NCBI RefSeq assembly: GCF_963583255.1
Contig: NC_084815.1
Location: forward strand, 8,727,724-8,791,723
Reading direction: 5' to 3'
Origin: Pyrus communis
Lineage: Eukaryota; Streptophyta; Magnoliopsida; Rosales; Rosaceae
Length of the DNA stretch: 64,000 bases
Of the stretch, positions 1,899 to 62,039 are shown in pieces. The notes beneath the pieces were generated by a model. That model ran no database searches and had not been told where the DNA came from. It was given only the letters and a program-made list of their open reading frames with translations. The translations under genes and the position numbers were made by a program. The number at the start of each line of letters is the position of its first letter. Within the stretch, counting starts at the first letter, position 1.

Positions 1899-3575
1899 AT
1901 ATTAGAAAGGCAGAAGGAGAGTTTGGTGTCTTAAGGCTTCACCAAAAAGTTTTGGACTAAAAAGCCCCCCAAACAAAAAAAAATCAAAACTGAGGGAAAA
2001 AATACATATAAAAACGCCAAGGGTAATTATGTCAGAAACAGAAATTCATATTTCATTTTATTAGAAAAAAGGAGATAAAAAAGAGGACGTGACCAACTCC
2101 ACTCCTCCATTTTCAGAGAGAGAGAGAGAGGGACTAATATCTCATAGAAATATTGTTAAAAAAAAACAAAACTTAAAATTTGTTTTATTGAAAAAAGAAA
2201 AAAAAAAAAGCAACGTGCTGAACCCCTCAAAATAAATTAGAAGTGGAATCTGGATAAACTGCAACGCGTTCAAAATAAAGCAGTTTCTTCAAACTGAATT
2301 GCCAATATATCATTCCATCAATATTCTCCCTGAACTACGTTGAAAGCCTTTGATTCGTGGAGAAAGGAAAGAAAATTAAGGAGACTATTCACTGCTGCAG
2401 ATAGAATGCTATTGGAGTAAAGCCATGCCAAATCGATAGAACGCCAAATGAAAATATAATAAAGCCAGAAATTTCAGGGCAAAAATATATTAAAAAAATA
2501 TCTAAGAAATTTATATCAAACAAAAACAATGTAATTGCTATGACATCCCACATTGCCTAGGGGAGTGATCCTTAAATGTATATTCCCATCCCTACCTAGC
2601 ACGAGGCTTTTTGGGAGCTCACTGGCTTCGGGTTCCATGGGAACTCCGAAGTTAAGCGAGAGGGGGGCTAGAGCAATCCCATGATGGGTGACCCACTGGG
2701 AAGTTGCTCGTGAGTTCCCAAAAACAAAACCGTGAGGGAATGGTAAGCCCAAAGCGGACAATATCGTGCTACTGTGGTGAAGCGGGCCAGGGAAGTGATC
2801 CGCCCCGGGCCGGGATGTGAGAATTACACTCCATTTTAAGAGAGATATATTAAACAAAGAATTAACATTTGTTTTATTGGAAAAAAGGGAAAAAGAAAAA
2901 AGGGAAAAAAAAACAAGAACATGAACGTATCTCCTCCATTTTAGGAGGAGATATTAATATCTAACAAAATTATACAAATATATATATAAAGAAACAAAGT
3001 GGGAGAAAAAGGGTAGAGGTTGTTGTCAGTTTAAAAAAAACGGTGAAGTTCTCCCACTACCAAGCAGTACCTTCCCAGTTCCCATGCACATTTCGATTTT
3101 CTCTGTTTTGGCTACAATATTATTATATGTACTCCCCATCTCCTCCGACTTTAATATTAGAAAGCTAGAAGGAGAGTTTGGTGTCTCAAAGTTTCACCAA
3201 AAAATTTTGGAATAAAAAGCCCCCTAAACAAAAAAATTCAAAACTGAGCGAAAAAGTACATATAAAAACCCCAAGGGTAATTCTGTCAGAAACAGAAATT
3301 TATATTTCATTTTATTAGAAACAAAAAAGATATAAAAAAGGGGACGTGACCAACTCCACTCCTCATCCATTTTCGGAGAGAAAGGGACCAATATCTATAG
3401 CAATATTGTTAAAAAAAAACCGAAACTTAAAATTTGTTTTATTGAAAAAAAAAAAAAAAAAAAAAACAGGGAACGTGCTGAACCCCTCAAAAAAAATTAG
3501 AATGTGGATACTGGATAAACCACAACACGTTCAAAATAAAGCAGTTTCTTCAAATTGAACTGCCAATATATCCTT
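1899..3575. repeat. Local diverged repeat family, left block
   Basis: Two imperfect direct copies of a ~410-bp unit lie at about 1899-2310 and 3152-3575, sharing 'agaaggagagtttggtgtct', 'gacgtgaccaactccactcc' and 'ttaaaatttgttttattg'. A second module at 2335-2535 recurs at 16140-16330, and a third at 2849-3152 recurs at 17766-18335. The modules are non-coding and A-rich. They flank the large compound insertion on both sides, so they are the ancestral landing site. Poly-A, (GA)n and (GT)n runs near 2116, 3440 and 3727 add length variation. Confidence 0.7.
2539..2822 (+). mobile_element. Cassandra TRIM solo LTR with 5S rRNA-like core
   Basis: A 284-bp LTR, the same length as the two Cassandra LTRs at 4011 and 6571. 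It carries a 5S rRNA-derived core with the internal RNA polymerase III promoter: a box A-like 'aagttaagcga' and a box C-like 'gatgggtgacccactgg'. Ends have decayed (TA...GA instead of TG...CA). Flanking 5-mers ATTGC (2534-2538) and ATTAC (2823-2827) are a target duplication with one transition. No internal domain remains, so it is a solo LTR. The pol III signal is sense to the LTR. The minus-strand reading frame across it is a by-product. Confidence 0.88.
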
Positions 3576-4005
3576 CCATAAATATTCTCCCTCAACTTCT
3601 TTAAGTTTTAAATTTCTAATTTCTTTTATGATCAACTTTTAGCTTTTTGTTTAAAGTTTTAGCTTGCAGACGATCGTATTATTGTGGAGCAATTGAGGGA
3701 TAGGGTTTTCGATTTCGTCATTTATGCGTGTGTGTGTGTGTGTATGGAATGAGAGCCCCAAAACAGGGTAATTAAAATATAAAAAAATCAAGAAAATTAT
3801 CCTCTAAAAATTAGCAGTTATGGAGAGGAGAGAGAGATAAATGATAAAGGCAACTAAAACAAATTAAACAAATTAAAACAAATTAAAACAAAAAGAACGG
3901 AATAACTTCTCCTCCATTTTAAGAGGAAATATTAATCTAACAAAATTATATTAAAAAAATATCTAAGAAATTTATATTAAATAAGAACAACGTAATTGCT
4001 CTCCA
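3576..4005. other. Non-coding local repeat sequence
   Basis: A-rich sequence with a (GT)n run near 3727-3742 and another partial copy of the 'tccattttaagagg' module at about 3903-4010. The last copy is the target of the compound insertion: its 'ctccatttta' is cut at 4010 and resumes as 'ttttaggagag' at 15723. Nothing coding is visible. Confidence 0.55.
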
Positions 4006-4010
4006 TTTTA
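4006..4010. repeat. Left target-site duplication TTTTA of the compound element
   Basis: The 5-mer TTTTA abuts the left end of the compound and is repeated at 15723-15727 immediately after its right end. Joining the flanks across one copy rebuilds the 'ccattttaggagag' module found uninterrupted nearby, so the duplication is real and not a chance AT-rich match. Confidence 0.85.
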
Positions 4011-4294
4011 TGTCACATCCCGGCCCGGGGCGGATCACTTTCCGGACCCGTTCCAACACCGTAGCACGATATTGTCCGATTTGGGCTTACCATTCCCTCA
4101 CGGTTTTGTTTTTGGGAACTCACGAGCAACTTCCCAGTGGGTCACCTATCATGGGATTGCTCTAGCCCCCTTCTCGCTTAACTTCGGAATTCCTACGGAA
4201 CCCGAAGCCAGTGAGCTCCCAAAAGGCCTCGTGCTAGGTAGGGATTGGAATATACATTTAAGGATCACTCCCCTGGGCGATGTGGGATGTCACA
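4011..4294 (-). mobile_element. Cassandra LTR, minus orientation (3' LTR of left half)
   Basis: 284 bp with perfect TG...CA ends (TGTGACATCCC... read on the minus strand). The 5S-like core is present, but the box C-like motif has a G-to-A change (gatAggtgacc). It differs from the 6571 copy at about seven positions by eye. Both share variants not in the 2539 solo copy, so they look like the two LTRs of one Cassandra insertion. Confidence 0.88.
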
Positions 4295-4365
4295 TTCCAC
4301 CCCCCTTAGGGGCCCGACGTCCTTGTCGGCACATTTCCGGCCAGGGATTGGCTCTGATACCAAAC
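4295..4365 (-). mobile_element. Cassandra internal domain: PPT and tRNA-iMet primer site
   Basis: Read on the minus strand, a primer site TGGTATCAGAGCCA (4349-4362) lies three bases after the chromovirus LTR end. A short non-coding spacer containing 'ggacgtcgggcccc' follows, then a polypurine tract 'taaggggggtggaa' (4295-4308) directly before the Cassandra LTR. It codes for nothing, as expected of a TRIM, which depends on another element's proteins. The primer site is complementary to the 3' end of initiator methionine tRNA and is shared with the neighbouring chromovirus. Confidence 0.85.
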
Positions 4366-6566
4366 TGACACACCCCGACCGAGATCAGGGCGTGCTGACC
4401 GTCACACGAATGTGACATAGCCATGTGCACGTGCGGAAGCTAATAGAACAGTAATATATAAAAATACGAATAATTAAAAACTAGCATACAAAGTACTAAA
4501 CAAGTGCTAGCATAGTGAGATACAAATTCAGAGCAAGACTACAGCAGTCCAAAAGAAAAGTTGCGACAAAAGTACACCCGAAGGTGACCCTACGCTGGTG
4601 AGTATCTGTCAGAAAAACCGGAAGAACCCTCTGGGAGACCACCGAAACTGCTAAGCAACTAGAACCTGGAGGGGCGCAAAACAAAAGCGTGAGTGGGCAA
4701 AAACAAATCTTTCTAAAACCATTTAGCAAAATACTTTCTAACCCCTCTCCGTAAAACCTGTATACTTCCCAGAAAAATAAACATATATACGTATGTATAG
4801 ATATGCCAAACATGCTCAAGGGTATGCCAATCATGCTCAATAATATGCCATGTCGGAACCTCATAATGAAATGCAAGTGCTCAGGTATAAATCACATCAA
4901 TAGCATAACATCTGGCAGCCGGAGTCACCTAACGTGACCTGTACGGCTGCATATAGAGCTCAAATCTCAACTCAATAACTAAACCTGCCCACGAGTCGGA
5001 ACCACCTATAGTGGTCTGTACGACAGGCCTCGGTGTAATACATATGTACGCTTTAGTGCTACGATCACGTGAAGACTGTGCGAATAATCGCGGGTCACCT
5101 ACAAGTCGGAACCACCTAAAGTGGTCTGTACGACAGGACTGTGCACCTAACTTGGATCCAAGCTGAGCGTGTGGTGCGGGAGGTGAACATCACGTGAAGG
5201 GCTGTGCCCTACTCTGGGCGGGAGCACTAACACCGGGGGTGCAGGTTATGAGCTCTCTAAGCATCTCAATCCACTACTGAATATAAACATGTATACCACT
5301 TACCTGGCATTTACCTGTGCATCCACAGCACCAAATATGCATAATTATATGTATGCCACTACTAATGAATGCAATGATGCATAAACGATAATAATATGGT
5401 GCATGGCATAAGTCAAATAATCCTTTTTAATCAATTTCTGGGAATATAATTGTATATAGATATATACGGAAAACAAAAGTCCACTCACTGGTATGTGGAA
5501 GGGTCGTAGCCCCCCCTGCCTCGAGTGACCATGCTCGTCCTCGGGGTACGTGTCACCTATATGCGAAACAACTATAAAAACATTAACTTTAAAGCACAAA
5601 ACCAACTTCTCGTAATAACTTCTCATACATTGCTCAAAATGGACAAATGAATATACCAACATGCTCTACTCAACCTCAGGATCACAACCATATTTTTAGA
5701 AAATTGTTCCTCCGCCGCACGCGCCCCCACGCGCCGGCCAAGGCACGGCCACATACGCAGGCACGTGCGGTGCACACGGACGGCGTCAACTGACGCCGTT
5801 AGGAATATTCCGTTATTTCTAACGGATTCCGTCAACGGCGTCAGGAATATTCCGTCAACTTTGACGGAATATTCCGTCACCTTCTCCGTTCAATCTCCGG
5901 TGCCGTCGCCGGTGCCGGAAAACAGGAAAACCTACAACTCGAGTTTTCTCACTCGTTTCTCAGCCGTTTTTCGTGATTTTTAAACCAAAATGAAGCCCTA
6001 GACTAGTAGAACACATCCATACAAGTTTTGAGGGCTAAAACTCACGGGATCATACCTGTGCAAACTATCCAAAACCGGCCAACTTCGAACAGAACGATCC
6101 CGACGTCCAAATTCGTCCAACGAAGCACTCCGAGGCTCCTTGGGACCTCACTAAGACACCTACGAGCTTCAAAATTCCAAAAACATGCTAGATTAATGTT
6201 TGCATGAACAGTACACAAAACTGCCATTGTCGAATCGACGTGAAAACGATGTATTTCTCACCTGAAAATGGTATGGTTGCACTCGCACGAGCTTCACGAG
6301 TTCAACTGTGCCCTTGGTTTCCTCGATCTGCAAAGGTTTGAGGAGTTGTGTGTGTGTCCGTACGTATTAAGGTGAACGGGAAGGGAGAGGGAGATGAGAG
6401 ACAGAGACAGAGAAAGGGCAGAGAGAGACAGTGAGTGTGAATGTGTGTGTGTGTGGCCCAGCACATGCCACAACACACAAAACAACCAATAATGTCAAAG
6501 AAACGAACTAGGGGTAAAGTTGACAATTCACACGTGCGTTTCGATATTTCCGGGAGGGATGTCACA
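4366..6566 (-). repeat. Chromovirus LTR, minus orientation (2,201 bp)
   Basis: An inverted copy of the LTR at 13697-15722, with ends TGTGACATCC and GGTGTGTCA read on the minus strand. Divergence in a 124-base sample at the U5 end is three substitutions. It is ~175 bp longer than its partner because it keeps a segment near 6060-6250 that the partner lost between two 'atcgtt' repeats. It contains several tandem-like GC-rich motifs and a (GT)/(GA) tract near 6390-6450. The reading frames inside are LTR shadows. Confidence 0.88.
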
Positions 6567-6570
6567 ACAT
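6567..6570. other. U3-U3 junction tetranucleotide ACAT
   Basis: Four bases separate the U3 end of the inverted chromovirus LTR from the U3 end of the Cassandra LTR. AC is the complement of the GT that precedes the chromovirus 3' LTR at 13695-13696. AT resembles the bases that precede a Cassandra 3' LTR (AA in the copy here). This is what end-joining of two unprocessed linear cDNAs would leave. Confidence 0.6.
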
Positions 6571-6854
6571 TGTGACATCCCACATCGCCCAGGGGAGTGA
6601 TCCTTAAATGTATATTCCAATCCCTACCTAGCACGAGGCCTTTTGGGAGCTCACTGGCTTCGGGTTCCGTAGGAACTCCAAAGTTAAGCGAGAAGGGGGC
6701 TAGAGCAATCCCATGATGGGTGACCCACTGGGAAGTTGCTCGTGAGTTCCCAAAAACAAAACCGTGAGGGAATGGTAAGCCCAAATCGGACAATATCGTG
6801 CTACGGTGGTGGAACGGGCCCGGGAAGTGATCCACCCCGGGCCGGGATGTGACA
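6571..6854 (+). mobile_element. Cassandra LTR, plus orientation, acting as 5' LTR of gag-pol
   Basis: 284 bp with perfect TGTGACATCC...GATGTGACA ends. The 5S-like core runs from about 6628 to 6750. The pol III box A-like and box C-like motifs (gatgggtgacccactgg) are intact. It stands where the chromovirus 5' LTR should be, three bases before the gag-pol primer site, so any pol II transcript of the downstream gag-pol would start from a foreign TRIM promoter. Confidence 0.88.
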
Positions 6855-6857
6855 AAT

Positions 6858-6869
6858 TGGTATCAGAGC
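6858..6869 (+). other. Primer-binding site (initiator Met tRNA) of the chromovirus
   Basis: TGGTATCAGAGC, complementary to the CCA end of plant initiator methionine tRNA, begins three bases after the Cassandra LTR. The match to the Cassandra primer site (4349-4362) is exact over these 12 bases. This is the boundary at which the two elements changed partners. Confidence 0.88.
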
Positions 6870-6933
6870 TTAGGTTTGGCAGTCCTGTGTCCTTGTGAGT
6901 ATTCTAATGGTTTTGGTGTCTTCTGTCAGAAAT

Positions 6934-9900
6934 ATGCCGCCTCGTCGGGAACCACGTCGTTCTTCTGAGTCTAGCTTCCCCGATGTTGCTCAGTTGGTGG
7001 AAGTTATTGCTACAGCCCTTCAGTCTGTGATGCGCCCTCCCCAGAGGACTCCTCTGGAGACTATGTACAATCTGAAGTTGGATAAGTTCAAAGGTAGTGA
7101 GGGCCACGAGGGCGCAGAGCGGTGGTTAGAACACATTGAAAAGACTTTCCGTGTGTTGCATAATCAGGGGAACCTTCCTATGGAGAGGTGGGTCGAGACG
7201 ACCTCATGGTTTCTGGATACGGAGTCTGCTGCCTGGTGGGAGCAGGAGCTTCGTAGGTTGACTCCAGCTTAGAGGACTGATTGGAATGTTTTTACGGATT
7301 TGTTCAAGAGGAGGTATGTGCCCCCTGAGTACATTGATCGGAAGAAGCAGGAGTTCACTAAGCTGAAACAGCGGAAGATGTCGGCTAATGAGTACTACCG
7401 CAAGTTTACTGATCTGTCCCGCTACCATCCTGATGTTGCTGGTAATCCAGCGGAGATGCTCCGTCGTTTCCGTTTGGGCACCAGGAAGAGGTGGCGTTCT
7501 ATGGCGACTACTACACACTGCGAGTCCTACCAGGATTTCTACGAGATTTTGTTGAGGATTAAGGACTTAGAGAATATGTCGAGCGACAGCGATGAAGAGA
7601 AGGACGGCAATCAGAAGAAAGATGATAAGGGTAAGGGTCAAGCGTCGCTCAGGCCCCGTCAGACTCAGAACTTCAAGAGGGGTGGTGCTAGTTCGAGTTC
7701 TTCTAGTGGTGGTTTCAGTGCCACTGGGCAGGGTCGTGGAGGTAGATTTTCTGGTGGTGCTAGAGGCCAGAGGCAGGGCGATGGTGGTCGAGGCAGAGCC
7801 CCTGTTTGCCGCAGGTGTAACAATCAGCATTTCGGCGAGTGTAGGCGTGGCAGCAGTGGGTGCTTCACGTGTGGACAGGTGGGACATAGAGCTGGGAATT
7901 GTCCCCAGGGTCAGCCGCAGAAACCGCAGCAGACTTGTTGGAAATATGCCCTGAAAGTCAATCTTTGGAAGAAACCTTTCAGGACAATGAATTGATGTAT
8001 AGATGATTCTTTTACATCGGAAGGCAAAGATACTAATTAGGACTATCTCAATAAACGAAATATGTCCTAAATAGTGAATCCATGGACAATGGATCGATGG
8101 AAGAAGTAACCTAATGATGTTAGATTACAGAGACCTTCTTCTCATAACCATCATGTCCAAAAAGGTTTCTGGTCATAGGATTGTCGGAGGGATACTGACA
8201 ATCCATAGACCGGTACATACTATGTCCACTTCAATTGGAAGGATGGAAAGTCTCATCCCATTCGTGTAGTGACACTAAGACAAGTATGTAGGTGCTCATT
8301 AAGGGAATGAGTTCACTGAACACAATCGAACAAGAGTACTTGCATGGAGGTCTACTCACATGTCAAGCAAGTAACTCTAATGGTTGGAATAATGTAAGTA
8401 ATCCTTTGACCTGAGGCATCGTCGTTGTCTTGTGGTTAAGTACTTAATCTTTGATTATGTTAAAGTCATTCCGTTCGCGAGTGTCTAAGGCATCGTTGGG
8501 GTTAAGCCACTTAGCCATGAAGGCAAGTGAATGCGCAACAAGGAATCTCTAATCCTCGATAAGAGAGGATGAATACTCTAAGATATGATTCGGGAATCTT
8601 CGGCCGAAGTATCGAGCGTAATAAAGGAAAGCGTTCCTATACGTCTCAAATGAATCATATAAGAAGGAATAATCACATTAGGGGTTTGACATTATAAATC
8701 CATACCCTAGTAATGTGATTGAGAGTATTGTTTTAGAGAATGATCGAATTACATTGTAATTCCAACTGAATAGGTTCTCCGAATAACTTTTACATTAGCT
8801 TGGGTAGCCATGATATATGGTTAGATGTCACTCATGGCTTGTGAGTTCTTCTAGATGATTAAATGTAGTCATCAAAAGGAAGGTGAATTAAAAGTAAGTT
8901 TTAATTCACTAAGTGATTGGATAATCAATTGGATTGGTGCCAATCACCTCACTGCCTTGCTAATTAGAACCTAAAAGATTGTTCACCAATACACTCTTGT
9001 AGTGAGTAACTAATGGATGAAGGAAATAATTAATTGGATTAATTAAGTGTTTTGATTAATTTAGAAAGTCTAAAGAAATCATAAAAGCGATAAAGATCGT
9101 TTTGGGCTTAAAGAAACGTTCGGGTTTAATTAGGCCCATTGGGCCAAAACCCATTGGGCTTTTATTCAAGCATTGGATGACTTGAAATAATTAAAAGCCC
9201 AAAGCCCAAACCAAACACATATGGCCGGCCACCAAGGGAGAGATAGGTCAAAATGTTGACTTGTTTCTTTTGTCTATAAAAGGAACTTTATAACACAAAG
9301 TTCATTAGGGTTTTATGTGTTCTAAAAACAACAAAAGAGAAAAGAAAAGCTCTCTCTCTTGAACACAAAGGGTCGGCCACCAAGGGGGTGATTTAACTAA
9401 TCATCTATACACCCTTTTGGTTATTCCTTCATCTTTCTCATTACAAAGTGGGTGAGGATCTTTAGAGGTTTTCATATCTTTGGAAACTTGAAGAGAACCT
9501 AGGAGCACTTACTTTACAAAGTGGAGGAAGCAAGGAGGGAGGCTAGGCTCAAGGAGTTTGAGGAGCAAAGAGCTTGAAGGTGGTCCATCCTTGGTCTAAG
9601 ATCTAGATCAAGAGGTATAAAACTAAACCTCTAGTTTGTTCTTCTTCTAAATTTTGTTTTGATGCATCTTATATAAACCTATGCATCTTGAAGGGGATTT
9701 GCATGACTATAGCTTTGATAAAATGTATGACATGCTTCCGTTGCTTTCGTATATAAATTTTGAATTGTATATGCATGCTAGTCACTAGAAATCCCACATG
9801 AATCTCATAGATTTCCCTTCAAGACTTTTATGCCACCACCTGCACCGCTCCAGCAGATCCAGGGTCCGACTAGCTACGGCCAGACTGGTCGAGGTGGTGC

Positions 9901-12900
9901 TTACCACTATCAGGGTGATGCTGTCCCTTATGCTCCGGGGCAGTATCAGTATCCCCAGGATCCCTATTCCCAGGGTGGCTATCCTCAGTATTCGGGCGGC
10001 TATATGCCGTATCCTCCAGCTCCAGTAGGTGGCTCTCAGTGGTATCAGGGAGGACAGTATCAGCAGGGTGAGATTGCCACTAGCAGTGCAGGGTCTTCGA
10101 GACAGTCGGGTCAGCCCAGTCAGGGGCGTGGTGCTTAGGGACGCGGTGTTCAGGCGAGCAGAGGCTGCGGTGGACGTCAGCAGGGCCAGGGGCGTCTTCA
10201 CAATATTTCCCTGCAGGACGCTCATAACAACCCAGACTTGATTATGGGTACGTTAAACATTCTTGGTTGTTTTGCTAGAGTCTTAATTGATTGTGGAGCT
10301 ACACATTCCGTGATTTCTCATACATTTGCTCAAGTGACGCAACCTCGCCCCACACCTCTAGGGTACGATTTAGAGTTCGCTATGCCTAGAGGAGAGAGAC
10401 ATGTCGTAGATTGTGTGTACCCAGGATGTCCAGTGATTGTAGAGGGTGTTGCTTTGTCAGCCGATCTTATCCCGTTAGATATTGTTGACTTTGATGTGAT
10501 TCTGGGCACGGATTGGTTACATTTCTATCATGCCAACATCGATTGTTACGGGAAAGTAGTTACGTTTCACCGACCTGGACTACCTGTGGTTACTTTTGTG
10601 GGTGAGCAGAGTGGGGTGAGACACGACGTTATTTCGGCGTTGCGAGCGAAAAAGTTGTTGTCTAAGGGTTGTCAGGGGTATCTAGCTCATGTGGTGCTAG
10701 ATGAGGCTGTTCCTAACAGAGTTGAGGACGTGAGAGTGGTCAGACACTTTCCTGATGTTTTCCCCGAGGATTTACCTGGTCTACCCCTAGATCGAGACGT
10801 GGAGTTCACTATTGAGTTGCTTCCAGGTACTAATCCTATTTCTTTAACTCCTTATCATATGGCTCCCGCGGAGTTAAGGGAATTGAAAGTTCAGTTGCAG
10901 GAGTTAATGGATAAGGGATTCATTCAACTTAGTACTTCGCCTTGGGGCGTTCCAGTTTTGTTTGTGAGGAAGAAGGATGGAACTTTGAGGCTGTGTATCG
11001 ACTACAGGCAATTGAATCGGGTGATGATTAAAAACCGTTATCCATTGCCTCGTATCGATGATTTGTTTGACCAGCTGAGAGGTGCTTGTGTGTTCTCTAA
11101 GATAGACTTGAGGTCTGGGTACTATCAGCTGAAGATCAGTAGGGATGATGTCCCTAAGACGGCGTTCAGGACTCGTTATGGTCATTACGAGTTTCTGGTT
11201 ATGCCATTTGGGTTGACGAATGCACCAGCCGCCTTCATGGATTTAATGAATCGGGTGTTCCAACCTTACTTGGATAGATTTGTTATTGTCTTCATCGACG
11301 ATATTCTGGTGTATTCTAAGTCGAAGGCAGAGCATGTTCGACATCTTACTTTGGTGTTGAAGAGGTTGAGGGAACACCAATTATATGCTAAGTTTAGCAA
11401 GTGCCAGTTCTGGTTAGATCAAGTTGCGTTCTTGGGGCACATCATTTCTGCTCAGGGTATTTTGGTAGACCCTCAGAAGGTCGCAGCTGTGGAGAGTTGG
11501 GAGCAACCGCGAACCGTCACCGAGGTGAGAAGTTTCCTTGGTTTGGCGGGGTATTATCGGAGATTCGTTAAGGATTTTTCGATGATTGCCTTGCCACTGA
11601 CAAGATTAACGAGGAAGGATGTTAAATTTGAGTGGGATGATAGGTGTGAATAGAGTTTCCAGTAGTTGAAGCATTGTCTCACTCATGCACCTGTTTTGGC
11701 ACTCCCAGACGATAGTGGTGATTTCGAGGTTTATAGCGATGCTTCCTTGAATGGTCTGGGATGTGTGTTGATGCAGCATGGTAGGGTGATTGCTTATGCT
11801 TCGCGGCAGTTGAAACCCCATGAGTTGAATTACCCTACACATGATTTGGAGTTGGCTGCTATTATCTTTGCGTTGAAGTTGTGGAGACACTACCTTTACG
11901 GGGAGAAATGTAGGATCTTTACAGATCACAAGAGTCTCCAATATCTCTTTACTCAGAAGGAACTTAATCTTCGTTAACGGAGGTGGTTGGAGTTGCTCAG
12001 CGATTACGATTGCACGATTGATTATCATCCTGGTCGTGCAAACGTAGTGGCTGATCCACTTAGCAGGAAGTCATAGGGCCGTATTAATGCGTTGTACGCT
12101 AGTCGTATTCCTCTTTTGGTGGACTTGCGTGCTACGGGAGTGAGGTTAGAAGCAGAAGATCGAGAAGTGGCGTTACTTGCTAATTTCCAAGTTAGGCCGA
12201 TACTTGTTGATCGGGTGCTTGAGGCTCAGGTAGCTGACCAGGAGACTCAAGAACTAATTCAAGCTCGAGATCAAGGAAGGAGGCGATACCTCAGAGTTCG
12301 TGATTCGGATGACATGTTGATGCAAGAGGGTAGGATGTTCGTGCCTAATATTGTGGATTTGAAGAAAGAAATTCTCGATGAAGCACATATCTCGACTTAC
12401 GCCATGCATCCAGGAACTACTAAAATGTATCATACCATTCGACCATTTTATTATTGGCCGGGTATGAAGAGGGAGATAGCCGAGTATGTGAGCAGGTGTG
12501 CTGTTTGTCAGCAGGTTAAAGCAAAAAGGAAGAAGCCGTTTGGGTTGTTGCAGCCGCTTCCCGTTCCAGAGTGGAAATGGGAAAATATTACTATGGATTT
12601 TGTGTACAAGTTGCCGCATACACAAAATGGCTTTGACGGCATTTGGGTGATCGTTGATCGGCTCACTAAATCAGCACATTTTATTCCAGTGAGAGAGAAG
12701 TATTCTTTGAGCCGTTTAGCGGAGTTGTTTATCTTGAAGGTTGTGAAGTATCATGGTGTCCCAATGAGTATTGTCTCGGATCGTGATCCACGATTTACAT
12801 CGAAGTTCTGGGTGGCTTTTCAGGAAGCTTTGGGCACGAGACTACTTTACAGTACGGTGTATCATCCACAGACAGACGGACAGTCAGAGAGAACTATTCA

Positions 12901-13639
12901 GACTTTGGAGGATATGTTACGAGCTTCGGTGTTGCAGTTTGGTGATGCTTGGCACCGGCGGTTAGATTTGATGGAATTTGCCTACAACAACAATTTCCAT
13001 TCGAGCATCGGCATGGCGCCATTTGAGGCATTGTATGGTACAGCTTGTCGCACACCATTGTGTTGGTCAGAGGTTGGTGAGAGAGTTTTAGTGGGTCCAG
13101 AGATTGTTGAGGAGACTACTCAGAATGTTCAGGTAATTAAGTCTAACGTGAAAGCAGCTCAGGACAGGCAGAAGAGTTTAGCGGATCAGCATGCTACGGA
13201 CAGAGTGTATGAGGTCGGAGACTGGGTATTTCTGAAGCTTTCACCATGGAGAGGTGTTGTGCGGTTTGGAAAGAATGGGAAGTTGAGCCCCAGGTACATC
13301 GGACCATACATGGTCACAGAACGAGTTGGTGAGGTAGCTTACAGGTTGAAGTTGCCTTCGGAGTTAGCTAGAGTGCATAACGTTTTTCACGTGTCTATGC
13401 TCCGACATTATGTTGCTGATCCATCTCATGTGATACCTCCTCAACCGTTAGAGATTAATCCAGATTTGACGTATGACGAGGAACCGGTAACGATCATCGA
13501 TTGGAAAGAGAAGGTTCTGAGGAATAAGACAGTGAACTTAGTGAAAGTTTTGTGGAGGAATCATTCAGTCGAGGAAGCTACATGGGAGACAGAAGATCGG
13601 ATGAGGGATTTGTATCCTAGATTGTTCTTTGACCACTAG
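6934..13639 (+). pseudogene. Ty3/gypsy chromovirus gag-pol (Tekay/Del-like), inactivated
   Basis: One continuous frame holds all retrotransposon domains. Gag runs from the ATG at 6934; its zinc knuckle CFTCGQVGHRAGNC is at 7861-7902, preceded by a second cysteine cluster. The protease motif LIDCGATHS is near 10282 (canonical D-S-G, here D-C-G). Reverse transcriptase carries FIDDILVYS at 11291, and RNase H (YSDAS) is at 11666-11977. Integrase has the HHCC finger near 12408-12520 and a D,D,E core (VSDRDP; TDGQSERT). A C-terminal chromodomain-like segment (EEATWETEDRM) is at 13470-13630. Six in-frame stops (7270, 10136, 11651, 11663, 11975, 12074) and a solo LTR at 7936-9821 break it. After removing the insertion and one target duplication the frame is unchanged, so no frameshift is needed. 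The chromodomain type and LTR ends fit the Tekay/Del lineage. Confidence 0.92.
7936..9821 (+). mobile_element. Solo LTR inserted in gag (probable Ty1/copia, 1,886 bp)
   Basis: Starts TGTTGGAAATATG and ends TTTCCCTTCA. It is flanked by perfect 5-bp duplications AGACT (7931-7935 and 9822-9826). Gag codons continue on both sides in frame once the insert and one AGACT are removed. A TATA box (TATAAAAG, 9275-9282) with a transcribed-looking downstream part suggests the promoter lies in the 3' third. There is no primer site, gag or pol, so the element was reduced by LTR-LTR recombination. Assignment to copia rests on the TGTTGG... start and is tentative. Confidence 0.85.
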
Positions 13640-13680
13640 GGGTTGCTGCTTGGTTATTTTGAATTTCGAGACGAAATTCT

Positions 13681-13696
13681 ATTAAGGTGGGTAGGT
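13681..13696 (+). other. Polypurine tract of the chromovirus
   Basis: 'attaaggtgggtaggt' directly precedes the TGTGACATCC start of the 3' LTR. This is the plus-strand priming site for cDNA synthesis, with the usual position and purine content for this lineage. Confidence 0.8.
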
Positions 13697-15722
13697 TGTG
13701 ACATCCTGTCCCGGAAATATCGAAACGCACGTGTGAATTGTCAACTTTACCCCTAGTTCGTTTCTTTGACATTATTGGTTGTTTTGTGTGTTGTGGCATG
13801 TGCTGGGCCACACACACACACATTCACACTCACTATCTCTCTCTGCCCTTTCTCTGTCTCTATCTCTCATCTCCCTCTCCCTTCCCGTTCACCTTAATAC
13901 GTACGGACACACACACAACTCCTCAAACCTTTGCAGATCGAGGAAACCAAGGGCATAGTTGAACTCGTGAAGCTCGTGCGAATGCAACCATACCATTTTC
14001 AGGTGAGAAATACATCGTTCTGTTCGAAGTTGGCCGGTTTTGGATAGTTTGCACAGGTATGATCCCGTGAGTTTTAGCCCTCAAAACTTGTATGGATGTG
14101 TTCTACTAGTCTAGGGCTTCATTTTGGTTTAAAAATCACGAAAAACGGCTGAGAAACGAGTGAGAACACTCGAGTTGCAGGTTTCCCAGTTTTCCGGCGC
14201 CGGTGACGGCACCGGAGATTGAACAGAGAAGGTGACGGAATATTCCGTTAGAGTTGACGGAATATTCCTGACGCCGTTGACGGAATTCGTTAGAAATAAC
14301 GGAATATTCCTAACGGCGTCAGTTGACGCCGTCCGTGTGCACCGCACGTGCCTGCGCGTGGCCGGCGCGTGCGGCGGAGGAAATTTTTTCTAAAAATATG
14401 GTTGTGATCCTGAGGTTGAGTAGAGCATGTTGGTATATTCATTTGTCCATTTTGAGCAATGTATGAGAAGTTATTACGAGAAGTTGGTTTTGTGCTTTAA
14501 AGTTAATGTTTTTATAGTTGTTTCGCATATAGGTGACACGTACCCCGAGGACGAGCGTGGTCACTCGAGGCAGGGGGGCTACGACCCTTCCACATACCAG
14601 TGAGTGGGCTTTTGTTTTCCGTATATACCTATATACAATTATATTCCCAGAAATTGATTAAAAAGGATTATTTGACTTATGCCATGCACCATATTATTAT
14701 CGTTTATGCATCATTGCATTCATTAGTAGTGGCATACATATAATTATGCATATTTGGTGCTGTGGACGCACAGGTAAGTGCCAGGTAAGTGGTATACATG
14801 TTTATATTCAGTAGTGGATTGAGATGCTTAGAGAGCTCATAACCTGCACCCCCGGTGTCAGTGCTCCCACCCAGAGTAGGGCACAGTCCTTCACGTGATG
14901 TTCACCTCCCGCACCACACGCTCAGCTTGGATCCAAGTTAGGTGCACAGTCCTGTCGTACAGACCACTTTAGGTGGTTCCGACTCGTAGGTGACCCGCGA
15001 TTATTCGCACAGTCTTCACGTGATCGTAGCACTAGAGCGTACATATGTATTACACCCAGGCCTGTCGTACAGACCACTATAGGTGGTTCTGACTCGTGGG
15101 CAGGTTCAGTTATTGAGTTGAGATTTGAGCTCTATATGCAGCCGTACAGGTCACGTTAGGTGACTCCGGCTGCCAGATGTTATGCTATTGATGTGATTTA
15201 TACCTGAGCACTTGCATTTCATTATGAGGTTCCGACATGGCATATTATTGAGCATGATTGGCATACCCTTGAGCATGTTTGGCATATCTATACATACGTA
15301 TATATGTTTATTTTTCTGGGAAGTATACAGGTTTTACGGAGAGGGGTTAGAAAGTATTTTGCTAAATGGTTTTAGAAAGATTTGTTTTTGCCCACTAACG
15401 CTTTTGTTTTGCGCCCCTGCAGGTTCTAGTTGCTTAGTAGTTTCGGTGGTCTCCCAGAGGGTTCTTCCGGTTTTTCTGACAGATACTCACCAGCGTAGGG
15501 TCACCTTCGGGTGTACTTTTGTCTCAACTTTTCTTTTGGACTGCTGTAGTCTTGCTCTGAATTTGTATCTCACTATGCTAGCACTTGTTTAGTACTTTGT
15601 ATGCTAGTTTTTAATTATTCGTATTTTTATATATTACTGTTCTATTAGCTTCCGCACGTGCACATGGCTACGTCACATTCGTGTGACGGCCAGCACGCCC
15701 TAATCTCGGTCGGGGTGTGTCA
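13697..15722 (+). repeat. Chromovirus 3' LTR, plus orientation (2,026 bp)
   Basis: Starts TGTGACATCC after the polypurine tract and ends GGGGTGTGTCA, followed by the TTTTA duplication. It is the inverted partner of 4366-6566, at about 2% divergence by eye, and lacks ~175 bp near 14017. It includes a (CA)n run and a CT-rich tract near 13810-13880. In a normal element the 5' LTR would be a direct, not inverted, repeat of this one. Confidence 0.9.
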
Positions 15723-15727
15723 TTTTA
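15723..15727. repeat. Right target-site duplication TTTTA of the compound element
   Basis: Matches 4006-4010. The flank that follows ('ggagagagatattg') continues the local repeat module that was cut at 4010. Confidence 0.85.
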
Positions 15728-16353
15728 GGAGAGAGATATTGAACAGAGAATTAAAATTTGTTTTATTGGAGGAAAAAAAAAAAAAAGAACATGAACGTAT
15801 CTCGTCCATTTTAGGAGGAGATATTAATATGTAACAAAATTATATTAAAGAAAATAAGAAATGAATTTTTTGAGAGAAAATGAAGTTAAAACTTCATAAA
15901 TATTAGGAATTTGCATGAAAAGTTGAAGGCCTTTGATTCATGGAGAAAGGAAAGAATTAAACACAGAATTAAAATTGTTTCATTGGAAGAAAAAAAAAGG
16001 AAAAAAAAAAAAAGAACATGAATGTATCTCCTCCATTTTAGGAGGAGATATTAATATCTAACAAAATTATATTAAATAAAATGAACTTTTTTTTAGAGAA
16101 AATGAAGTTAAAACTTCATAAATATTAGGAACTTGTATGAAACGTTGGAAGCCTTTGATTTGTGGAGAAAGGAAAGAAAATTAAAGAGCCTATGCGCTGC
16201 TGCACATAGAATGCTATTGGAGTAAAGCCAAGCCAAATCGATAGAACGCCAAATGAAAATATAATAAAGCCGGAAATTTCAGGGCAAAATTATATCTAAG
16301 AAATTTATATGAAACAAAAACAACGTAATGGCCCTTCATTTTAAGAGAGATAT
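15728..16353. repeat. Local diverged repeat family, right block
   Basis: Two copies of the 'gaacatgaacgtatctc..tccattttaggaggag' module (about 15735-15845 and 15965-16080), each followed by a shared 'aaaacttcataaatattagga' segment. The part from about 16140 to 16330 matches 2335-2535. Non-coding; ends in the GATAT target duplication of the next insertion. Confidence 0.7.
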
Positions 16354-17760
16354 TGTTGACCTTAAAAACTACCAAGCCTACGTGGCGCGCATGCCGAGTA
16401 ATTAATAAGCTAACTACATCCTTTAATTGTATGCGGGGCGTGCCAACTTGTCGGCCGAGCTCGGCCAATGAGTAAAATGTGTTGACGTTGCATTGAGAAC
16501 GCTGCTGACTTCTTGATCTTGCGACTGCGGCTGAGGAAGGAACACACCTCGGCCTTCGAGTTCTAGAGCCTGAAGACAAGGCTGCTAGTCCTGTGAAGTT
16601 CAATATCAAATTTGGCTTTCAATGTACTGAATGTAGTAAGCTGTAACACCTCACTTCGTCGAGATGGCTAATGAGATGACCTCTGCCAATAAGGATTTGA
16701 AAATCCTTCTAGACCGAGACTTGGATATATATCCAGTTGGCCTCGACGCAGTGCTGTTTATCGAAACTGAAAGTGCTCCAGGAACGGCTGATTCTACGGT
16801 AACAGTGCTGTTTATCCAAACTAAAGATGTCACCAGTTGCCTTCACAGTGCTGTTTATCCAAACTGAAAGTCTGTTGGCGGAAAAAAAAAATAAAAAAAT
16901 CTCAAGATGTTTGAGAGGTTTGAACAGGGCAATTTATGTGTTGGATTGGAGAGAGCTTTTCATGTTGCACGACCTCTTGCATTTATAGTGTCTGTGTGTT
17001 TAGTAGCCAACCCGTGTAATTCCAGTCGAAAGCATAACACTTTTCCTGAGATAATTATCACGAAATCCCTTGCCATCATCTTGATATTCAAACTAGATAC
17101 ACTAGCCACTTGATAAGGCTCGTATTTCGAGTTGTTGTTAACTTCAAATTTCCATGCACCACGTGCCATATCCTATCACCAACTCACCAGATCATCATCA
17201 TGATTATTCCAACTTAAACAGGAATATGCCATTGCTAGCAAACTGAAGAGTGCGGCATCTCCTTTATTTTTGCTCAGAAGCATCCATGCATGCAACGCAA
17301 CTTGCAATTTAATTACATCAATATTTACTTGTTTTATCCCATCTTTCTTTCCAATTAAATGCAAACCATGCATTATCAAAAAATTCAACCAGATCACATC
17401 TCCCATTTCTGCATGCTGTTTTATCTTTAGATTCTGATAAGTAGCACTTTTCCATGTTGATCAGGATGTGAACCAACCAAGCTGCACAATGCGTAACCAC
17501 ATGGAGTCCTTGTACAATTGTTACTTCTTTCATTTATTTGACCCTCACGTCGCAACTGTAAGATAATTCTCATTTTAATAAATTCCTAATAAAATGGTAA
17601 TATCAATTATGTCCTCCTTCATCCAACGACTTAAAGTATTTGGGCTGAGTGCGTACAAAATCATGGCCTCTTAATATTCTTAGTCATCCGACGGTCCAGA
17701 ATTTTGCTCATTCAACAACCTAGATTACTCGGGCCGATAGTGTAAAATCGGGTCCAAACA
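16354..17760 (+). mobile_element. Solo LTR, 1,407 bp, with perfect GATAT duplication
   Basis: Begins TGTTGACCTTAAAAAC and ends GGGTCCAAACA. GATAT at 16349-16353 and 17761-17765 flanks it exactly. Removing it restores the 'gagagatattaaac' module of the local repeat. Three partial repeats of 'cagtgctgtttatc' lie at 16751-16866. No coding capacity. Orientation cannot be fixed without an internal domain; plus is assumed because both ends read TG...CA either way. The family is unidentified, but the start resembles a common plant LTR class. Confidence 0.78.
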
Positions 17761-17778
17761 GATATATTAAACGGAGAA

Positions 17779-18335
17779 TTAAAATTTGTTTTATTGGAAA
17801 AAAGAAAAAAAAAAGAAAGGAACATGAACGTATCTCCTCCATTTTAGGAGGAGATATTAATATATAACATAATTATTTATAAAAACATAAAATAAGAAAG
17901 AACGTGGGAGAAAAAGGGTAGAGGTTGTATCAGTTTAAAAAAAAAACTATGAAGTTCTCCCACTACCAAGCAGTAACTTCCCAATTCCCATGTACATTCC
18001 CATTTTTTCTGTTTTGGCTACAATATTATTATATGTACTCCCCATCTCCTCCGATTATTAAAATTTGTTTTATTGGAAAAAAGAAAAAAAAAGAAAGGAA
18101 CATGAACGTATCTCCTCCATTTTAGGAGGAGATATTAATATATAACATAATTATTTATAAAAACATAAAATAAGAAAGAACGTGGGAGAAAAAGGGTAGA
18201 GGTTGTATCAGTTTAAAAAAAAAACTATGAAGTTCTCCCACTACCAAGCAGTAACTTCCCAATTCCCATGTACATTCCCATTTTTTCTGTTTTGGCTACA
18301 ATATTATTATATGTACTCCCCATCTCCTCCGATTA
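17779..18335. repeat. Near-perfect tandem duplication, units of 279 and 278 bp
   Basis: Unit 1 is 17779-18057 and unit 2 is 18058-18335. As far as I can read them, they differ only by one A in a homopolymer near 17805/18085. The unit also has a diverged relative at 2849-3152. The high identity means either a very recent duplication or an assembly collapse/expansion error. No coding sequence. Confidence 0.85.
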
Positions 18336-59600: not shown

Positions 59601-62039
59601 ATGTGACATTGATGATTCTAAAGGCTCAAAACGAGGTGAAACATTGAAAGGATACAATGCTAATGCTTCCAAAGCAGCTACTTCTTCCATGAGTACATCT
59701 TCCTCATCAAACTCATCTTGAGATTGACTCAAAACAGTTTGCAATGGTTCATTCGATTGTGTCTGCAAGAACTTAGAGAATACAAGTGAATCAAGCACAT
59801 CAATGGCATAACAATCAAGAGATGACGAAAGATGAGAAAGAGATTCAAACACTTTGAATTGAACTGTCTCTCCTAACACTGTCATAGTGAGGAGTCCATT
59901 TTGCACATCAATGATGGTCTTGGCCGTGGCCATGAAAGGTCTCCCAAGCAATATTGGCAACTCACGATCATGTATAGGAGCTTCTTCCATGTCCAACACT
60001 ACAAAATCTGCAGGCAAGATTAGTTTATCAACTTGAACTAGAATATCTTCTACTATACCTCTTGGATATTTCACGGATCTGTCTGCAAGTTGTAATGAAA
60101 TGGTGGTGGCTTTCAAATCTCCCAAACCTAGTTGAAGGTACACTGAATAAGGCATTAAGTTGATGCTAGCACCCAAATCAAGCATTGCCTTCTCTACTTT
60201 CTTGTCCCCTATGGTGATGTTGATAGAGAAACTGCCTGGATCCTTGAGCTTTGGTGGAAGTTTTCTTTGCAAAACTGCACTCACATTCTCAGACACCACT
60301 ACCTTCTCATGTGGTCCATACTTCCTTTTGTAGCTGTTTAACTCCTTGAAGAACTTCCCATATGCCGACATGTTCCTAATGACATCAAGCAAAGGTAAGT
60401 TAACATTCACTTTGCTTAGTATATCAAAAATTTCTTTGAATGACTTATCCTGCTTGCTCTTGGCAAGTCTTCCAGGGAATGGTATTGGTGGAGTGTATGG
60501 TTTCTCGGCCTTGTGAAGATTTGGTGCTTCTAGCGAGGAAGTGGCATGGCTTGGTTCCTCAATTGATTTCTCATTGTCTCCTTGAGTGACACCTGCATTC
60601 ACATGATCATATTCATTAGTAACTTCATTGCCAACTCTATTATCAATAACCTTACCACTTCTAAGTATAGTGATTGCTTTGGCTTGCTCTTGATTCCTTT
60701 GGAGTATCACGGGTTGGCTTGGAAACTTCCCAACCTCTCTTTGGTTCAAGGCATCTGCAATCTGCCCCAATTGCGTCTCCATTTTGGTTAGGGCGGCTGA
60801 ATGTTGTTGGAGTGCGCTATTGGTGGAATGTTGGAATTGCAAGGTGTTTTGGGCTAACAATTTAACCGTGTCCTCAAGGGTAGTGGCAGGTTTTGGTTGG
60901 AAATTTTGGGTTGGATTGTTGTTCTTCCATGAAAAATTGGGACGATCTCTCCAACTCGGGTTATATGTATTGGAATACATATCATTCCTTGGTCTTTGGT
61001 TGTAAGAATTCATGAGGTTCACTTGTTCTTGAACATACTCGGGGTAAGCTTCCCTAGATGGGCATTGGTGAGTAGGATGGCTTGGTATGTTGCAAATGGC
61101 ACACACTTCATTAGCTTTTGGCACCATGTTGAGCACGGATTCAAGCTTCCTTTCTAGGTTAGCTACCTGCAACAAAAGCTCATGATTAGAACTTGTTTCA
61201 TAAACTCCAACTTTCTTACCCCTTAAATCTTTGTGTTGAGCATTAGACCCCAACATCTCATAAATGTTATATGATTCTTGAGCATTCTTTTTCTTCAATG
61301 CTCCACCTGCTGCATTATCCACAGTTGATTGACAATTTTGGGTTAGTCCATCATAGAAAATTTGCATTTGTAAATGAAAAGGTAACCCATGGTGTGGACA
61401 TTGTATCAAGAGGCCTTTAAAACCCTCCCAACACTCATTGAAAGGTTCTCCATCATCTTGTTTGAAGTTGAAGATTTGTCCCCTTAATGTGGCTGTCTTT
61501 TGAGTGGAAAAGAACTTCTCCAAGAACTTCTTAGCCACGGCATCCCATGTAGTGAGGGAACCTGGTGTTAGAGTCATCAACCAACTCTTGGCCCTATCTT
61601 TCAAGGTGTAAGGAAACACTCTCATCCTCAAATTAGCTTCACTCACTCCCTGCAAAGGTAAACCACTCACAACATTGTAAAACTCTTTAATATGAGCTAA
61701 AGGGTCTTCATTAGGTAAGCCATAAAATGAAGGAAACATATGGAAATGTGAAGATTTGAGATCATAGTTTCTAGCTTCTGTGGGCAGCAAGATGCATGAA
61801 GGTGAATTTGGTATGATTGGTTGAGCAAAGTCCTCCAAAGCTCGAAGTTCATCTTCGTTGCCCGCCATCTCTTCCTCTCTTGCCCAATCAAATTGCTCAG
61901 ATTCTTTACTTGTTGAATTAGGTGAATTCCCTTCCTCTTCCTCACGGTTAAAGGATGAACTTGATGGCACAAAGTTGTCCAAAGTGTGGCCCTTTAATCT
62001 TTCAATTCTTTGGCCTAACTCAACAAGTTTATTTGACAT
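56661..62039 (-). CDS. Intact Athila-type gag-pol polyprotein, 1,792 residues
   Basis: One frame without stops. Gag core is about residues 100-240, with the zinc knuckle [14 protein letters not shown] at 313-326. The protease DLGAS is at 621 (the D-L-G form usual in this lineage). RT has FMDDFSVFG at 1069; RNase H has CDAS at 1217. The integrase finger has H1427, H1434 and CSKCDRC, and its core residues D1497, D1556 and E1592 keep a D-35-E spacing. It reverse transcribes and integrates element cDNA from cytoplasmic particles. Odd points: the strongly conserved RT block MPFGLCNAPATFQ reads [13 protein letters not shown] (G-to-E at 1042, P-to-S at 1047), which may weaken the enzyme even though the frame is whole. 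The start is the first ATG after the leader. Identical LTRs agree with a young copy. Confidence 0.93.

Follow-up and report, generated by a model that had tools for sequence, protein, structure and literature searches.

Several systems described previously come close to the arrangement reported here. Complex insertions of long terminal repeat (LTR) retrotransposons have been ascribed to aberrant switching of reverse transcription between two RNA templates (Sabot and Schulman, 2007; PMC1950507), and template switching is one of the routes suggested for tandem arrays in which LTRs of Cassandra, a terminal-repeat retrotransposon in miniature (TRIM), are shared (Kalendar, 2020; PMC7215508). Tandem LTR-retrotransposons with one target site duplication (TSD) have been reported from rice (Mob DNA, 2025; PMC11899658). 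Longer related elements were sought as helpers of TRIMs and found for 11 of 289 TRIM subfamilies (Gao, 2016; PMC4717578), and two papers term the partner of Cassandra unknown; all of this follows the portions of the sources at hand. Here we analysed a 64,000-nucleotide stretch of Pyrus communis DNA (NC_084815.1, positions 8,727,724 to 8,791,723; hereafter the window), in which Cassandra and a chromovirus (Ty3/gypsy) lie head to head with exchanged LTRs inside a single TSD.

We read this composite as the product of Cassandra and chromovirus RNAs that were copied together, exchanged LTRs reciprocally at their shared primer-binding site (PBS), were joined at their U3 ends and were inserted once, a reading to which we give a probability of about three in four. 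Between the two copies of TTTTA (4011-15722) lie, from left to right, a Cassandra LTR and the Cassandra internal domain, both reverse-complemented, a PBS, a reverse-complemented chromovirus LTR, the four bases ACAT, and then a Cassandra LTR, a PBS, gag-pol and a chromovirus LTR (Table 1). All parts that an earlier note on this DNA had assigned to the two halves were recovered by repeat analysis, direct reading and segment mapping, and the duplication is indeed confined to the outer U5 ends. The same note had the halves meeting U3 to U3; the joint does lie there, but the halves do not abut directly, the intervening ACAT having been missed.

Both LTR switches sit at the shared PBS, which is of the initiator methionine tRNA (iMet) type. 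At the right switch the Cassandra LTR and the spacer AAT are followed by the chromovirus leader. The same spacer is found after L006 and L007, two young Cassandra copies, and among the 100 matches listed of 469 it precedes a chromovirus leader only in the window. At the left switch, GTT, the PBS and the Cassandra internal domain come in turn after the chromovirus LTR; GTT is the usual spacer of the window chromovirus, for which GCT and, once, ATT were also seen. In retroviral two-LTR joints, the joined cDNA ends retain bases that 3' processing would remove. The linker would fit the 2+2 pattern expected of such unprocessed ends: AC corresponds to the two bases preceding the chromovirus LTR, reversed, and AT to the two bases preceding the 3' LTR in L006 and in the Cassandras on C1. 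A nested insertion was rejected: the U3 ends are separated by nothing but ACAT, and an inner TSD was not seen.

That the joined, LTR-exchanged molecule was integrated once, as the earlier note had proposed, is supported by several lines of evidence. As in the complex insertions attributed to template switching, a single duplication, TTTTA, flanks the whole; the chance of one perfect 5-mer TSD is about 1 in 1000 and higher in AT-rich flanks. The two LTR pairs, whose ages we express solely as divergence, are similarly diverged, by 2.46 +/- 0.92% for Cassandra (7 differences in 284 bp) and 2.08 +/- 0.32% for the chromovirus (42 differences in 2024 aligned sites, 6 gaps). Within a set of 78 distinct Cassandra LTR sequences, the two window LTRs have three rare variants in common, one of which was seen in none of the 76 other distinct copies, and the sequence nearest to the left LTR is the right one. 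When the two flanks were joined with one TTTTA and aligned to local repeat copies, two paralogous empty sites were recovered. AT-rich local repeat units (2822-2974, 3291-4010, 15728-16355 and 17760-18177) flank the composite and are the source of these paralogues.

The window architecture goes beyond chance, because the same layout is found again elsewhere in the genome, flanked by duplications of its own. The search covered a single assembly of the genome (487 Mb, 29 contigs), with the matches listed falling on C1-C17. Exact Cassandra U3-U3 joints occur at five places, in the window and on C1, C17, C5 and C4. The C4 site (C4:15146148), a Cassandra inverted array beside an apparently plain flank, was not counted as a composite. 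The C1 composite contains a chromovirus distinct from that of the window (69% in gag, 78-80% in pol), with an LTR pair diverged by 1.8 +/- 0.3% and a Cassandra pair (outer versus right) diverged by 3.5 +/- 1.1%; the Cassandra LTR of its chromovirus arm is nearer to the outer (3') LTR of the dimer (3.5%) than to the inner one (7.75%). In the C13 composite at 7.73 Mb, the chromovirus arm begins at its own PBS, without a 5' LTR, and the chromovirus LTRs differ at 11 of the 735 bases compared. The C5 locus (about 25.78 Mb) resembles C17, its LTR pieces being 89% and 96% identical to that of C17. Among the 18 composites with both ends read, TSDs are perfect in 12 (window, C1, C13, C17, C2, C10, C9 and five palindrome loci described below); this tally leaves out L023, L027, L041, L047, L051, L055, L063, L069, L082-L085 and others, the ends of which were unread. 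A search for chromovirus U3-U3 joints gave one site, C2:27025116, with 2 nt between, and at L041 (C8:9736713) two Cassandra LTRs lie head to head, and the second leads into a PBS and a 115-base gag remnant.

Hybrids also stand alone. The earlier note had suggested looking for Cassandra LTRs upstream of gag and for chromovirus LTRs upstream of a Cassandra domain, and further copies of both were found; the idea that the window composite is unique was rejected, other Cassandra LTR-PBS-gag junctions being present in the genome. In the hybrid on C6 the LTRs are only 4 differences in 2099 bases apart, so it is recent. Our pattern searches catch exact or near-exact junctions only, and older hybrids escape them. 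The left-junction pattern combines the last 14 bases of the chromovirus LTR, the PBS and the beginning of the Cassandra internal domain. It matches exactly at 22 genomic sites, against zero for the reversed control; allowing 2 mismatches raises the total to 236, and many of those listed are ordinary Cassandra. We examined 20 stretches that cover 21 of the 22 exact sites, the remaining one being the window. Downstream of the internal domain, all 20 continue into Cassandra LTR sequence, though that of L070 lies in inverted orientation beyond a 30-base inverted fragment of the chromovirus LTR end. A window- or C1-type chromovirus LTR match extends up to the junction in 11 of them, and 8 have no such match there, showing instead short palindromes or another LTR family that shares this end. 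L062, which holds two of the 22 sites, was rejected as a hybrid, its upstream LTR being itself Cassandra-like.

The right-junction pattern (LTR end, PBS and window chromovirus leader, up to 3 mismatches) gave 469 sites, of which 100 were listed. Seven of these carry the Cassandra-type end ATGTGACA, five of them exact (C6, C8, C9 and C13 twice) in addition to C3:10522346 and C2:32194813, and the other 93 finish in TGTGTCA, as predicted for this chromovirus; hybrids are therefore a minority product. Six of the seven sites were inspected, and the LTR is that of Cassandra at C6, C9, the window, C13:13147190 and C3, and that of a second TRIM at C8. A possible tRNA-copied tail at C3:7366497 (PBS, then CAGGTTTGG) was left uncounted, as the case hinges on one base, and a long match at C7:18474188 was dismissed as a Cassandra array without gag. 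At L035, L040 and L045 the internal sequence that follows the Cassandra LTR and PBS starts with GCATATG or GCATAAG and has no long reading frame; these loci perhaps represent a larger non-autonomous element carrying Cassandra LTRs.

We propose that Cassandra RNA and chromovirus RNA would have been reverse transcribed together, most simply inside one chromovirus particle. Because both elements use the same iMet-type primer site, the plus-strand strong-stop DNA (U3-R-U5-PBS) of each could anneal to the primer-site complement on the minus strand of the other. Two reciprocal hybrids would arise, one with chromovirus LTR, Cassandra body and Cassandra LTR, the other with Cassandra LTR, chromovirus body and chromovirus LTR. 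Their U3 ends, still bearing the bases that 3' processing would strip, would then be joined, and integrase would insert both outer U5 ends in one event with a 5-bp duplication. In an alternative order, integrase would first capture two cDNAs that are still separate, each by its U5 end, and the break would then be closed by joining their free U3 ends. Strong-stop transfer in trans would explain the reciprocal exchange, with two strong-stop DNAs for two acceptors, the likeness between the LTR on the C1 chromovirus arm and the outer Cassandra LTR, and the one-sided case on C13, where Cassandra may have taken one strong-stop DNA and none remained for the chromovirus; the joining of unprocessed ends would explain the linkers.

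At the 5' end of eight of the 20 left-junction stretches, the chromovirus-type U5 end forms a palindrome, which may reflect fold-back of the minus strand after its switch to chromovirus U5. The loop is of 6 bases at a GTCAC/GTGAC hairpin in four (L054, L056, L060, L070), short and elsewhere in U5 in three (L057-L059) and long in one (L065); the TSDs are perfect in five (L056, L057, L059, L060, L070). U5-U5 joints were found at four sites genome-wide (L082-L085), and in three of these (L082-L084) the joint bases fit the U5-PBS spacer, which lies outside U5 in unintegrated DNA. The second TRIM, at L051 (C8:11501000-11503500), has an internal domain that is 81-83% Cassandra-like and a different short LTR; on C8 it sits as an array directly upstream of chromovirus gag, joined at the PBS.

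Among the alternatives, finished cDNAs might have been cut and rejoined in the nucleus by microhomology-mediated repair at the PBS and then integrated. The PBS offers 12 bp of microhomology and the U3-U3 and U5-U5 joints require host end-joining anyway, but this route predicts neither the repeated switching at the PBS nor the U5 palindromes nor a chromovirus arm that stops at the PBS without an LTR, and we regard it as unlikely. Slightly less credible is a later inversion, the second of the two routes that the earlier note had left side by side: a Cassandra cDNA and a chromovirus cDNA, both complete, would have been inserted in one event as a U3-U3-joined molecule, and their 5' LTRs would have changed places when the segment between the inverted primer sites flipped. 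The same final order and TSD would result at both the window and C1, and C17 shows that a complete Cassandra can join U3-U3. Yet recombination between inverted sites of about 12 bp would be required at both loci, inversion fails to produce the direct hybrids on C10 and C2, each with one perfect TSD, and it is disfavoured because the C13 composite at 7.73 Mb has no chromovirus 5' LTR to invert; strand transfer is the favoured route. Two separate adjacent insertions, later rearranged or with duplications lost, could be imagined in such repeat-rich flanks, but are very improbable given one perfect TSD with only ACAT between the arms, similarly diverged LTR pairs, empty-site paralogues with one TTTTA and the same layout at other loci. 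Equally improbable is an assembly error, in view of four head-to-head loci (window, C1, C13, C17) with differing sequences and TSDs, a linker that fits cDNA ends and a private variant common to both Cassandra LTRs.

Several observations weigh against co-copying with reciprocal exchange and a single insertion. For the right Cassandra LTR of the window, LTRs of L006 (98.2%) and L007 (97.9%) are nearer matches than its own partner (97.5%), and the Cassandra arm of the window has AA rather than AT before its LTR, so that the Cassandra half of ACAT is off by one base. The left-hand GTT spacer is weak evidence, because GTT also follows some ordinary Cassandra LTRs (C1:18208585, C1:18208877) and occurs at the Cassandra LTR-gag junctions of C6 and C9. 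On C1 the Cassandra pair looks older than the chromovirus pair, though within about 1.5 standard errors; on C2 the Cassandra LTR before gag is without its last bases. As to the duplications, TTTTT at C13 (7.73 Mb) is a low-complexity T run and TATAA at C17 holds only if the final CA of the Cassandra LTR is read as TA. Four of the 18 composites match at 4 of 5 bases (C6 and the palindrome loci L054, L058 and L065), and for two, C5 and C3:7366497, the TSD was checked and no match found. The rule that the outer ends must be U5 is weakened by the four U5-U5 joints and by L070, which has Cassandra U3 outside. Moreover, every joint rests on one assembly, and in principle both RNAs might have been copied within a particle supplied by some third element.

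The Cassandra arm has a short non-coding internal domain (98% to that of L006, 95% to that of L007), and the PBS TGGTATCAGAGC lies just inside the LTR and is identical to the Cassandra PBS in PMC7215508. The RNA polymerase III boxes of the LTR agree with the consensus of the same paper at 11 of 12 (box A) and 12 of 13 positions (box C). The full-length 5S rRNA model (RF00001) matches at 24.9 bits (E 0.0041), under its Rfam gathering score of 38. In the chromovirus arm, the pieces of which were searched separately against Pfam, the order gag, protease, reverse transcriptase, RNase H and integrase is that of a chromovirus. Retrotrans_gag and zf-CCHC were matched only in the gag piece downstream of the stop at 7270-7272, the upstream piece having no Pfam match. 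H2C2 lies above its cut-off and the integrase core rve below it (26.6 versus 32.6 bits). The last 86 residues taken alone match the chromodomain PF00385 at E 1.6e-4 and 22.0 bits, below the cut-off of 25.1, and PDB 2m2l and CLR4 at E 2.8e-4 and 0.029; with the whole 520-aa integrase frame, the chromodomain is absent from the Pfam matches at E 0.001. Stops disrupt gag-pol, as does a 1.9-kb solo LTR that begins TGTTGGAAATATGCCC, finishes in CCCTTCA and was inserted into the chromovirus body; the earlier note had missed this LTR as well. Elsewhere in the window, a plant C/D snoRNA R71 (RF00097) was found at 61384-61494 (53.4 bits).

Table 1. Features of the window composite, its paralogous empty sites and related loci elsewhere in the assembly.
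Feature	Position	Strand	Basis or details
Left TSD, TTTTA	4006..4010	.	direct reading, empty-site alignment
Cassandra LTR (U5 outermost), 3' LTR of the Cassandra-body hybrid	4011..4294	-	repeat analysis, segment mapping
Cassandra internal domain, 71 bp	4295..4365	-	reverse-complemented polypurine tract 4295-4309, iMet-type PBS 4351-4362, spacer GTT 4363-4365
Chromovirus LTR, acting as 5' LTR of the Cassandra-body hybrid	4366..6566	-	inverted copy of 13697-15722
Linker ACAT at the U3-U3 joint	6567..6570	.	direct reading
Cassandra LTR, acting as 5' LTR of the chromovirus-body hybrid	6571..6854	+	5S rRNA-like at 6643-6754
Cassandra-type spacer AAT and iMet-type PBS, then chromovirus leader	6855..6869	+	PBS TGGTATCAGAGC at 6858-6869
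gag, stop at 7270-7272	6874..7935	+	Pfam
Later solo-LTR insertion, outside the composite event	7936..9821	.	TSD AGACT at 7931-7935 and 9822-9826
Protease and reverse transcriptase	10139..11653	+	Pfam
RNase H	11666..11977	+	Pfam
Integrase and C-terminal chromodomain-like stretch	12077..13639	+	Pfam (H2C2 above cut-off, rve below)
Polypurine tract and pre-LTR bases GT	13684..13696	+	direct reading
Chromovirus LTR, 3' LTR, outer end U5	13697..15722	+	repeat analysis, direct reading
Right TSD, TTTTA	15723..15727	.	direct reading, empty-site alignment
Paralogous empty site	2822..2974	+	spans the join, 17 bases left and 117 right; TTTTA once
Second paralogous empty site	16286..16355	+	58 bases left and 14 right; 2-base gap at the join
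C1 composite	C1:16545401-16556069		Cassandra dimer and chromovirus LTR (minus), then Cassandra LTR, gag, pol and LTR (plus); TSD GTTTA, 2-nt linker
C13 composite	about 7.734-7.744 Mb		minus-strand Cassandra LTR and internal domain, next a minus-strand chromovirus LTR, then the chromovirus arm; TSD TTTTT
C17 composite	about 3.9987-4.0024 Mb		different long LTR (minus), joined via AT to a complete Cassandra; TSD TATAA
C10 direct hybrid			chromovirus LTR, Cassandra body, Cassandra LTR; TSD ATTTA
C2 direct hybrid			Cassandra LTR, internal domain, LTR, gag-pol, chromovirus LTR; TSD TTTCT
C9 hybrid, rearranged			TSD TAGAG
C6 hybrid			chromovirus LTR, Cassandra body, Cassandra LTR, gag-pol, chromovirus LTR; flanks AAAAG/AAAAA
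L082			complete Cassandra tail to tail with chromovirus LTR; joint AAC
L083, L084			second TRIM family tail to tail with chromovirus LTR; joints ATTTAGC, ATTAAGC
L085			Cassandra with another LTR; joint ATTATC

A better knowledge of these hybrids is of interest, since chromovirus and Cassandra strands joined at the PBS and co-integrated would be physical traces of shared reverse transcription, and their recurrence points to a candidate for the missing helper of Cassandra. This recurrence lends weight to the proposal of the earlier note that Cassandra can be mobilised by a chromovirus, a proposal that still goes beyond what the junctions themselves record. Chromoviruses are a well-supported candidate helper, on which Cassandra may depend and the proteins of which may normally mobilise it. 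We consider it somewhat probable that, in this genome, the role of working helper for Cassandra and at least one other TRIM falls to iMet-primed chromoviruses, that strong-stop DNA is regularly swapped in mixed particles containing one RNA from Cassandra and one from a chromovirus, and that integrase accepts ends from two different cDNAs, so that joined hybrid pairs remain; if so, such pairs would preserve, like fossils, which element mobilises which. As a general method, junctions of this hybrid kind at primer sites could point to the helper of protein-less LTR elements. Cassandra/chromovirus hybrids are unreported in the literature searched, as far as its available parts go, but two earlier studies of recombination in Cassandra (pear, 2014; beet, 2021) may cover part of these findings, including the direct hybrids.

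Like retroviral two-LTR joints, the composite retains at its joined ends bases that 3' processing could remove; unlike them, it appears to join two different molecules that were then integrated with a TSD. Measured against the portions of the cited sources at hand, it shares the question of TRIM helpers with PMC4717578, where helpers rest on likeness of element sequence and not on hybrid insertions, and insertion of several bodies as a single event with the rice tandems of PMC11899658, in which LTRs and internal regions alternate and no TRIM-autonomous hybrid is described in those portions. The arrays of PMC7215508 find a counterpart in the Cassandra dimer of the C1 composite, but consist of Cassandra only, head to tail, with an autonomous partner called unknown. 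Closest are the insertions of PMC1950507, which likewise hold two element bodies within one 5-bp TSD; there, like elements lie in the same orientation with three LTRs and similar outermost LTRs, whereas the window combines a TRIM and a chromovirus in opposite orientation, with exchanged LTRs, a U3-U3 joint and outer LTRs of different families. Template-switched complex insertions are thus already known, and it is the inverted, cross-family, LTR-exchanged form that is new.

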